From Thermoplasmatales archaeon ex4572_165 (GTDB lineage Archaea; Thermoplasmatota; E2; DHVEG-1), in assembly GCA_002254885.1 (NCBI GenBank), contig NJDG01000007.1, positions 1 to 33,494 on the forward strand: a DNA stretch of 33,494 nt, given 5' to 3'. Shown piece by piece: positions 2,306 to 33,494 of the stretch. Positions within the stretch are counted from its first letter, which is position 1, and every line of letters begins with the position of its first letter. Below the pieces are notes generated by a model that worked only from the letters and a program-made list of their open reading frames with translations, was not told the DNA's origin and ran no database searches. A program made the translations under genes and the position numbers.

Positions 2306-5300
2306 TTATGATGAGGGAGATATCGCTATTGATATTTCATCATCATCAATCGTCCATGTTTTAACAAGAGATCCTTCTTGCTTTGAGCTGAATTGAATGT
2401 CTTTTGATCGAGTTTCCTCTTTAACATAACCTATCCATGAATCAAGCATCTTTTTGTTATCTTCATTTAGATGAATAATTATCTCTATCTCTTGTTCCAC
2501 ATCTAAATCTAGTTCCTTTCTCATAGATTGAATACGTCTGACAACCTCACGACAGAAACCTTCTGCTTTAAGCTCATCAGTTAATATTGTGTTCATAAGA
2601 ATAATGATACCGCCTGTTTCAGTTCGGGCAATACCCTCTTTTTCTTTTTCAACAACCTCAAAATCATCTATGTTTAAAGAAATTTCTTCACCATCAATAT
2701 CAACATTATATGATCCTTTTTCCAATATCTCTTGATATAGCTTATGTTTGTCAAGGGTTTCAAGAACTTTGGATACAATTCCTGCTTTTTCCTTAAACCG
2801 TGGTCCGATTACCGCAAAATTTGGTTTTAGCTCTTTATCCATATAGCCATCAGTATTTTGCTGGTACTTAATTTCCTTAACATTGATTTCCTCACGTAAC
2901 AGCTCAACAAGACCTTTTATGGAATCTTCTGTTTCTTTTGAACATATAAGAATTGCTTCTGATAAAGGATATCTAACCTTAATACCAATTTTTGATCGAA
3001 GAGCCCTTCCCACTTCAACAAGATCTCGTATCTGCTGCATTCCCGATTCAAGGTCATCATCAATAAATTCCATATTTGTCTTTGGATAATTGCATAGATG
3101 AATACTTTCTTTCATATCACCAGATCGAAGATTCTGATACATCTCCTCAGAAATAAAAGGAGTAAATGGAGCTAGCAGTTTAATAAGACTAAGAAACATC
3201 TCATACATTGTTGTGTATGCTGCTAACTTATCTTTTGTTTTTTCCTCAACCCATAGTCTTTTTCTTGAACGACGAAGATACCAGTTAGATAGATCATTAA
3301 GAAGGAATTGTTCGATGATTCTAGCGGCCTTATGAATCTCAAAGCTTTCCATATGTGTTTCTACCTGTTTGATGAGCCGGTGAAACCTGCTATGGATCCA
3401 TTTATCAAGACCTGACCAGTGAACTTTCTCCACACAATCAGACTTTGGATCAAATGAATCAAGAGAAGCATATGTAGTAAAAAAATTATAAGAATTCCAT
3501 AGCGTTAAAATAAAACGAGCCAGAGTCTCTTTAACTGCCTCCTCATAGAACCTGGTTGAATTCCAAGGAGCATTTGCAGAAAAAAGACTAAACCCAATGT
3601 CAAGACATTGTTATAACATGGCTTGTTGAAAAGCACAGTTGATATTGCAAGTAGCGAGTAGAACCATCCACGTGTTTGATCTAATGCTTCACTGATAAAA
3701 TCCACAGGATGATTATCATGAAAGACCACCTTGTTTTCAAATGGATAATGCCATTGAGCAAAGAATGCAGCTCCTGAATCATACCAACAATCAATAACCT
3801 CTGTTTCCCGTATCATACGACCTTTACATTTAGGACAGTTGACTTCTAAATCATCAACAAATGGCTTATGAAGATCATAATCCTCTGAAAAATCTTTGCT
3901 TAACTCACGTAACTCATCAACACTACCAACACATATCTCATGTTTACATGAATTGTTCTCACATCTCCATATTGGAAGGGGTGTACCCCAATACCGGCTT
4001 CTGGAAAGAGCCCAGTCTTTTACATCACGTAAAAAAGATCCAAATCTACCCTCCTTTAAATGAGGAGGATACCAATTGATCTTATCATTATTATCTAATA
4101 GATCCTTTTGTACTTTTGACATTGCAATAAACCATGATTCCATAGCATAATACAACAATGGTGAATCACATCGCCAGCAAAACGGATATTCATGCTCATA
4201 TTCCTTTACCCCTTCTAAAAGTCCTTTGTCCTCTAAATGTTTAATGATTTTAGGGTCTGCATCTTTTACAAACTCTCCCTTCCAGAGCGTTACACTTTCT
4301 TTAAAGGTTCCATTTTGTTTTACTAGTTGAATTACAGGTAGATCATTTTGCATACCTACTTTATAATCATCTTCCCCAAATGCTGGTGCTATATGAACGA
4401 TACCTGTTCCATCATCCATAGTTACAAAATCTGCACAAATTACAAACCATGCTTTTTTCTCTGGTTTTTCAAATGAAAACAATGGTTCATACTCAATTCC
4501 CATCAGTTCTTTTCCTTTGAATCCATCAAGAATCTCATATTGTTGACCTTTGAGAAGTACAGCTGCTCTATCCTCACCTAGGATCATCTCTTCACCATGA
4601 ATCCGGATTTTAATATAGGATTCATCTGGATGCACAGCCAAAGCAACATTAGATATAAGAGTCCATGGAGTTGTGGTCCATGCAAGAAAAAAGGTATCTT
4701 CATCTTTCAATTTGAATTTTACAAAAATAGATGGATCTGTGACAGTTTTATATCCCTGAGCCACCTCATGAGCAGAAATGGGTGTACCACATCTTGGACA
4801 GTATGGAACTACCTTATGACCCTTGTAAAGCAGTTTTTTCCCCCATGCCTTCTTCAAAGACCACCATACTGATTCAATATAATCATTTTCAAGCGTGATA
4901 TAAGGATGATCCATATCCACCCAAAAACCAATTCGTTCCGATAGTTTAACCCAAGCATTTTCATAGTTGAATACACTTGATCTACATTCTTCATTGAATT
5001 TTAAGACACCATAGTTTTCTACATCCTGTTTTTCCTTAAGGCCAAGTTTTTTTTCAACCTCAATTTCAACAGGTAAACCATGAGTATCCCATCCAGCCTT
5101 ACGCAAGATATAATGATCATTCATGGTCTTATGTCGTAAAACAAGATCTTTTACTGCTCTCGTAAGAACATGACCTGGATGAGGCATTCCATTTGCAGTT
5201 GGAGGACCTTCAAGAAATATGTAGGGTTTACTGTTTTTTCGCTCATCAATTGATTTCTGAAAGATATTGTTTTTTTTCCAGAATTCAAGAATGTTAGATT

Positions 5301-5343
5301 CTATGTCCTTGGGATTATATTTTTGTGATGGTGCTGAAATCAT
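2306..5343 (-). pseudogene. ileS: Isoleucyl-tRNA synthetase, disrupted by deletion of the KMSKS region and frame change
   Basis: IleRS charges tRNA-Ile. The N-terminal part (5343 to about 3586, 586 codons) is normal class I IleRS: HIGH-type HPGH at residues 55-58, the CP1 editing domain, zinc-type cysteines (CPRCG, CPKC) and DQTRGWFYSLL. After NVLTLGLV the frame is lost. Normal sequence resumes in another frame at 3580 (SANAPWNSTRFYEE) and runs to the stop at 2306, including the tRNA-binding C-terminal domain. Only five bases (3581-3585, part of a T6 run on the coding strand) separate the two parts. Archaeal IleRS has about 35 residues there, with the KMSKS loop and the GADALRWYL segment. The pieces sum to 1010 residues and adding 35 gives a normal length near 1045. 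This is either a true inactivating deletion or an assembly or consensus error. An intact gene elsewhere would decide. Identity is certain; the cause is not. Confidence 0.93.
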
Positions 5344-31805: not shown

Positions 31806-32112
31806 TTGTTGGGAGTAGGTGGACAGCTCACGGCCTTGTGCTGAGGAAAGTCCTCCCTCGCTCTGGACTGGGGACCTACACAAGTAGGAGAGGCGGGAGC
31901 CTCTGCAGAGGAGCAGAAACGACACAGCCCATGAAATATGCAATGATACAAGTCTGTTGTTGAGGTCTTTATGGGATTTGATGAAACGGCCAATCTGCCC
32001 CTGGAGCAAGCCTAAACAGTGGACATCAGTTGTCCAGACTGCCCCACAGGTAAGGCGCCTAGTAGAATGCTGTCTTAAAACAGAAGGAGGCTTACGGCCT
32101 ACACCCAGCTCT
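31806..32112 (+). ncRNA. rnpB: RNase P RNA (archaeal)
   Basis: This is the catalytic RNA that removes 5' leaders from pre-tRNAs, with archaeal protein partners (Pop5, Rpp30, Rpp21, Rpp29, L7Ae). The universally conserved elements are present and in order: GAGGAAAGTCC (CR-I, 31843-31853), CAGAAACGACACAG (CR-II/III region, about 31914-31927), and ACAGAAGGAGGCTTACGG (CR-V, 32080-32097), whose pairing with CR-I forms helix P4. The 5' GTTGGGAGTAGG (31808-31819) pairs with CCTACACCCAGC (32098-32109) to form P1 with one mismatch, which fixes both ends at about 302 nt. A CAGCTCAC/GTGCTG hairpin after P1 fits P3. It is far richer in G and C than its surroundings, as for structured RNAs in AT-rich genomes. 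Short frames here on either strand are not genes. Confidence 0.95.
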
Positions 32113-32308: not shown

Positions 32309-33494
32309 ATGGTACGGGAATTACCTGGATGGGTATTGAAGCATAAAAAGAAGGGTATTGCTATCGAGAAGCGAGGTAATAATTACTATGCAAGTAGAAT
32401 AACCTCTGTTTGGAATCCTTCAAAGGGACGGGCTCAGAAGAAGACGTTGGAGTATCTTGGTAAAGTTACTCCTGAGGGAATAGTTCCGCCGAAGCATAAA
32501 CGGAAATTGAGGGTTGGTGGTATACTTGAAGCTGGTCATTTCATTTTTTTAGAGAGGTTTATTAATAATATATCGGAGCCGTTGATGGAGAGTTTTCCGG
32601 ATGATTGGTCTAGTATTCTTTCTGCGGCTTGTATTAGACTTTGTTATCAGGAGCCTCTTTCAAGGTTGAAAATTCGTCATGATACGAGTCTGTCAGCTCG
32701 TTTTTGGCCTGCTGCTGCTCTTAGTAAGAATAGTTTGACTAGTTTGCTTCCTCGTATTGGTAGGCAATGGGAAACACAGAAAGAGTTTTTCTCTTATATT
32801 TCTAAGGATGAGGGTCATATGGCTATTGATCTTACTCATTTTTTTAGTGATAGTAAGAATATTTCTTGGTTGGAGATTAGTCGTAATCCTGAGGGTATTT
32901 GGCGTCCTCAATTGGAGCTTTTGTTGATGTGGGGTACTACGAGTCATACTCCGGGTTTTCTTAAGTTGCTTCCTGGTGCTACGCATAGTGCTAAATCTAT
33001 TGCAAATGCAATTAAGGAATCAAAGATACAGAATGTTATTGCTATAATGGATAAGGGTTTTTACAGTAAGGTTAATGTTGAATATCTTGAAGGTGAAGAG
33101 ATTCAATATGCTATTGCGCTTAAGCGTGATCTTTCAATAATTAAGCATACAGCTATATCGAAATATAGGGAGTATTTTCACTATAAAAAACATGCTCAAT
33201 GGTGGCGTTGCACAGATCTTGGTTCTGGACGAATGGTCTATCATTTTTTGGATAAGACTCTTGCAGATAATGAGGAATCAATGAGGAATCATCATACTTA
33301 TCTCTTGTTGACAAAGGAAAAGCTACTAAAACAAGTTACAATAAATTGAAAAAAAGATTTGGGACATTGTCCATTATCACAGATACTGGACTACCTGCCA
33401 GAGATGTATACAAATTATATAAGGAACGAAGAGAAGTTGAATATGCTTTTGAAGCTTTCAAAAAAACCCTCAGATCAGATGTCACATGGATGAG
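32309..33494 (+). CDS. IS4/IS1634-like DDE transposase, 3' incomplete, with a -1 frameshift
   Basis: The protein opens MVRELPGWVLKHKKKG with a basic N-terminal region, then YYASRITSVWNPSKGRAQKK typical of this group. The first catalytic aspartate is probably D174 in MAIDLTHFFSDS and the second D248 in IMDKGFYSKVN. The zero frame stops at 33349 after LLLTKEKLLKQVTIN. In the -1 frame, the normal continuation (KGKATKTSYNKLKKRFGTL, then ITDTGLPARDVYKLYKERR) runs open to the window end and contains the catalytic glutamate region REVEYAFEAFKKTL. The shift falls at ACAAAGG (33311-33317), where a Lys-tRNA could slip from AAG back to AAA. This is either a mutation, a sequencing error, or programmed frameshifting. 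The C-terminus lies outside the window. Confidence 0.85.

Follow-up and report, generated by a model that had tools for sequence, protein, structure and literature searches.

The deletion in ileS, the gene for isoleucyl-tRNA synthetase (IleRS), is very probably no feature of the organism but an error of local assembly in a draft genome built from short reads, as judged from sequence comparisons. The assembler or scaffolder would have fused the two flanks of ileS while omitting 100 nt between them, and the same omission would have affected at least three further conserved genes of the genome. The gene is located in the window, i.e., the whole stretch of 33,494 nt that was analyzed, which belongs to a draft genome of 55 contigs (1.20 Mb, 72.86% complete, 0.09% contamination). 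This genome was rebuilt from its stretches to 1,203,003 of 1,203,468 bases, with 465 bases of contig C37 left out.

In the window, ileS extends over positions 2306–5343 of the minus strand, and IleRS is encoded in two frames (Table 1). The 5' frame is unbroken as far as NVLTLGLV, with the final GTC at 3588–3586. After five T's (3585–3581), the 3' frame restarts with SANAPWNSTRFYEE from position 3580 downward. Relatives have 35 codons between the two parts, among them those for KMSKS and GADALRWYL. In a nucleotide alignment with 32 relatives, the window had a single gap at the junction; on balance exactly 100 nt were lost, which shifted the frame. The earlier note had estimated the loss at about 100 nt with remainder one on division by three, and had described the frame change between the two parts; both descriptions were accurate. 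The loss of the KMSKS loop, which it had also claimed, was borne out: the loop was present in 32 of 32 aligned relatives and is missing at 3581–3585 of the window's ileS.

Both flanks were found to be conserved, as had been stated from the sequence. The 5' part matched TIGR00392 with E = 4.5e-209 (profile positions 4–604) and the 3' part matched positions 642–855 of the 861 of this profile. In addition, the 5' part was matched by Pfam tRNA-synt_1 (E = 1e-105) and by the IleRS structure PDB 8c8u_A (query 12–585 versus chain 11–582), and the 3' part by Pfam Anticodon_1 and DUF5915. The HIGH-type motif and the class I core of IleRS are present, while a single open frame through the anticodon-binding domain is not kept owing to the frame change at the junction. 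The remainder of the gene is intact and free of stops and other frame damage. Since a break at this site was found in none of 59 related genomes, the break in ileS is far beyond chance. A search of phage records with the ileS region gave no match.

Table 1. Parts of ileS in the window and comparable lesions in other genes of the genome.
Feature	Position	Strand	Description
ileS 5' part	3586..5343	-	586 codons; HIGH-type motif (PHPGH), editing domain, catalytic core as far as NVLTLGLV
ileS junction	3581..3585	-	five T's where relatives have 105 nt (35 codons, including KMSKS and GADALRWYL)
ileS 3' part, other frame	2306..3580	-	end of catalytic domain, anticodon-binding domain, C-terminal DUF5915 domain, stop
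Out-of-frame tail FFLQMLLGIQPGSMRRQLKRLWLVLF	3505..3585	-	read-through of the ileS 5' ORF up to a stop
rfcS (replication factor C small subunit)	C36:~9888 (L155)		103 nt lost, ELNAS to SLTND, including the DEAD box of Walker B
FlaI/TadA-type pilus ATPase	C3:~45630 (L039)		about 182 nt lost, Walker A gone
Fusion of succinyl-CoA-ligase and citryl-CoA-lyase-like parts	C43:~5855 (L162)		311 nt lost, CoA-ligase core

The lesion was not confined to ileS. The one-contig genome G003, a relative from the same family, served as reference with ORFs from 940 kb, about half its proteome. Among 376 genes of the window's genome with a good match to these ORFs, a large internal loss combined with a frame change was observed in four: ileS, rfcS, the FlaI/TadA-type ATPase gene and the citryl-CoA-lyase-like fusion gene. 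In the reverse test of 364 genes of the window's genome versus G003 DNA, no comparable loss was found in G003. Taken alone, 4/376 versus 0/364 is a modest contrast. When 40 relatives were searched for each of rfcS, the ATPase and the fusion gene, the genes were uninterrupted or present as fragments at contig ends; the one exception noticed was a degenerate paralogue of the ATPase in G004, whose frame is broken although no segment is missing. None of the four loss lengths is divisible by three, and core sequence was removed in all four genes (KMSKS, Walker B, Walker A and the CoA-ligase core); therefore, the four copies as assembled could not work. Frame-breaking lengths in four of four genes are what one would expect if selection had never acted on the events.

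Since no archaeon can replicate its DNA without RfcS or translate without IleRS, a living cell with only the cut copies of rfcS and ileS is not credible. The statement that no other frame damage is seen in core genes applied to those in the window and failed genome-wide, where rfcS, the pilus ATPase and the citryl-CoA-lyase-like fusion carry lesions of the same kind and thereby indicate an assembly error. As anticipated for such an error, unrelated genes of one assembly showed the same type of lesion and their relatives did not. Four unrelated conserved genes damaged alike in one draft assembly implicate the assembly itself. Of the three readings that had been offered for ileS, that of a consensus or assembly error has by far the strongest support.

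Independent signs of misjudged gap sizes, which an assembly error would likewise lead one to expect, were found in short N runs and a duplicated flank. The assembly contains N runs of 14, 16 and 27 nt, and the 14-N run in contig C18 has an identical 13 nt on either side, i.e., an unmerged overlap. The gap size at this site is wrong since both flanks carry the same 13 nt; the N runs show scaffolding in which gap sizes were misjudged. Two long N runs, C29:54328–56973 (2646 nt) and C13:14326–15015 (690 nt), may be scaffold gaps or withheld sequence.

Conserved DNA common to co-occurring relatives or to strain variants may have tangled the assembly graph; contigs would have broken off at the tangled segments and would then have been joined over a misjudged gap. 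In ileS and rfcS, the loss struck DNA that ranks among the best conserved of the gene: 5 of 97 and 4 of 87 scored windows, respectively, reach as high a score. By comparison, 37 of 97 windows reach the score of the 311-nt segment, which marks no peak of conservation. Thus, conservation as a cause of the losses would be partly supported, by two of the three segments tested (ileS and rfcS), whereas the 311-nt segment is ordinary. Judged against the relatives, the overlaps at the junctions would range from 0 to about 6 nt, and apparent overlaps of this size do not single out one mechanism.

The search of the genome for another ileS, which the earlier note had proposed, was carried out. In the bin, no second IleRS was found, the other matches being at the ValRS/LeuRS level, and the lost ileS segment as query matched solely its own flank and a ValRS-like gene. 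Likewise, tblastn on the rebuilt genome gave no second location for this segment, and the lost pieces in general were not found elsewhere in the bin, where paralogues such as ValRS were the only matches. At 73% completeness this exclusion is not absolute: a second IleRS gene could lie in DNA missing from the bin while the window's copy decays. Such a second gene can scarcely be believed in, however, since each relative has one IleRS, with other matches at ValRS-level similarity, since the intact remainder of the window's ileS argues against decay, and since rfcS and the other cut genes would be left unexplained. Replacement in progress, as suggested earlier, is unsupported, as no other IleRS gene was present in the bin. 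It is just as hard to credit that the segments are truly missing from the chromosome at all four genes and that the unassembled 27% supplies intact products through additional gene copies or through pieces acting in trans. Overall, it is very unlikely that ileS is being replaced or that a living strain does without KMSKS.

A real deletion in part of a mixed population, i.e., in a minority strain or dead lineage whose path was chosen by the assembler, is improbable. A composite sequence can arise from a strain mixture, and a short CTT or TCTT that appears, from the relatives, to have been shared at the ileS junction would fit a deletion by replication slippage. However, independent rare events in four unrelated conserved genes would be required, all in one consensus, and two of these genes (ileS and rfcS) are normally essential. 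Losses at short overlaps are also known from whole-genome amplification, and if the draft were a single-cell genome, which its 0.09% contamination and partial completeness would suit, template switching could have deleted short segments before sequencing. This origin is likewise improbable: random chimeras would not favor the best-conserved DNA of a gene, where two of the three tested losses lie, and amplification chimeras are usually outvoted in an assembled consensus.

Further candidates for damage were encountered in the genome. When codon usage was scanned for additional frame breaks, 50 candidates emerged; they were not counted because many resemble ordinary gene neighbors with unusual start codons, e.g., uvrC-uvrB. 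Tandem duplications, considered as another sign of error, were dropped, since they mostly keep the frame and are not raised over G003. In-frame TAA stops in a glycosyltransferase-like gene (C22:1053–1055) and a sirtuin gene (C9:48215–48217), which may be single-base errors or real pseudogenes, and single-base frameshifts at C37:~3285 and in C40 were kept out of the assembly-error argument. At the contig end in the window, a DDE transposase gene (32309–33456, plus strand) is frame-shifted around 33270–33300, where the 11-nt AATGAGGAATC is tandemly repeated, either by natural duplication or by another assembly join. An archaeal RNase P RNA (RF00373, 188 bits) lies just upstream at 31811–32106 (plus strand). 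On contig C6 (L042, 6842–10342), UvrB carries a large intein in its Walker A loop (GVTGSGK / TFTMAH), which contains LAGLIDADG and helix-turn-helix domains (Pfam).

Of the conserved genes tested in this draft genome, about 1% have catalytic segments cut out, and motif losses, pseudogenes and gene splits in it are not to be taken as biology without the reads. Were the deletion real, it would be startling to find an essential synthetase that lacks its KMSKS loop. The gap in ileS is almost certainly not a real biological feature, and its value is that of a quality warning on the draft genome.

In comparison with class I IleRS of the MupA/eukaryote-like type (TIGR00392; PDB 8c8u, 1ile), both halves of the window's ileS match along nearly the whole length; unlike these, the assembled gene is devoid of the KMSKS loop and the following helix, and its frame is broken. 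Blunt losses of 100–311 nt as in the window's genome are not specifically described in the excerpts considered of a report on local assembly and scaffolding errors in MAGs (Chen et al. 2020, PMC7111523). According to these excerpts, the errors were identified there by read support, whereas those in the window's genome were judged from sequence comparison. The same excerpts report Ns inserted despite overlapping flanks as an error type of IDBA-UD and CLC assemblies, which the 14-N run in C18 with its 13-nt duplicate resembles. As in the errors described there, the gene sequence appears to have been corrupted at unsupported joins.
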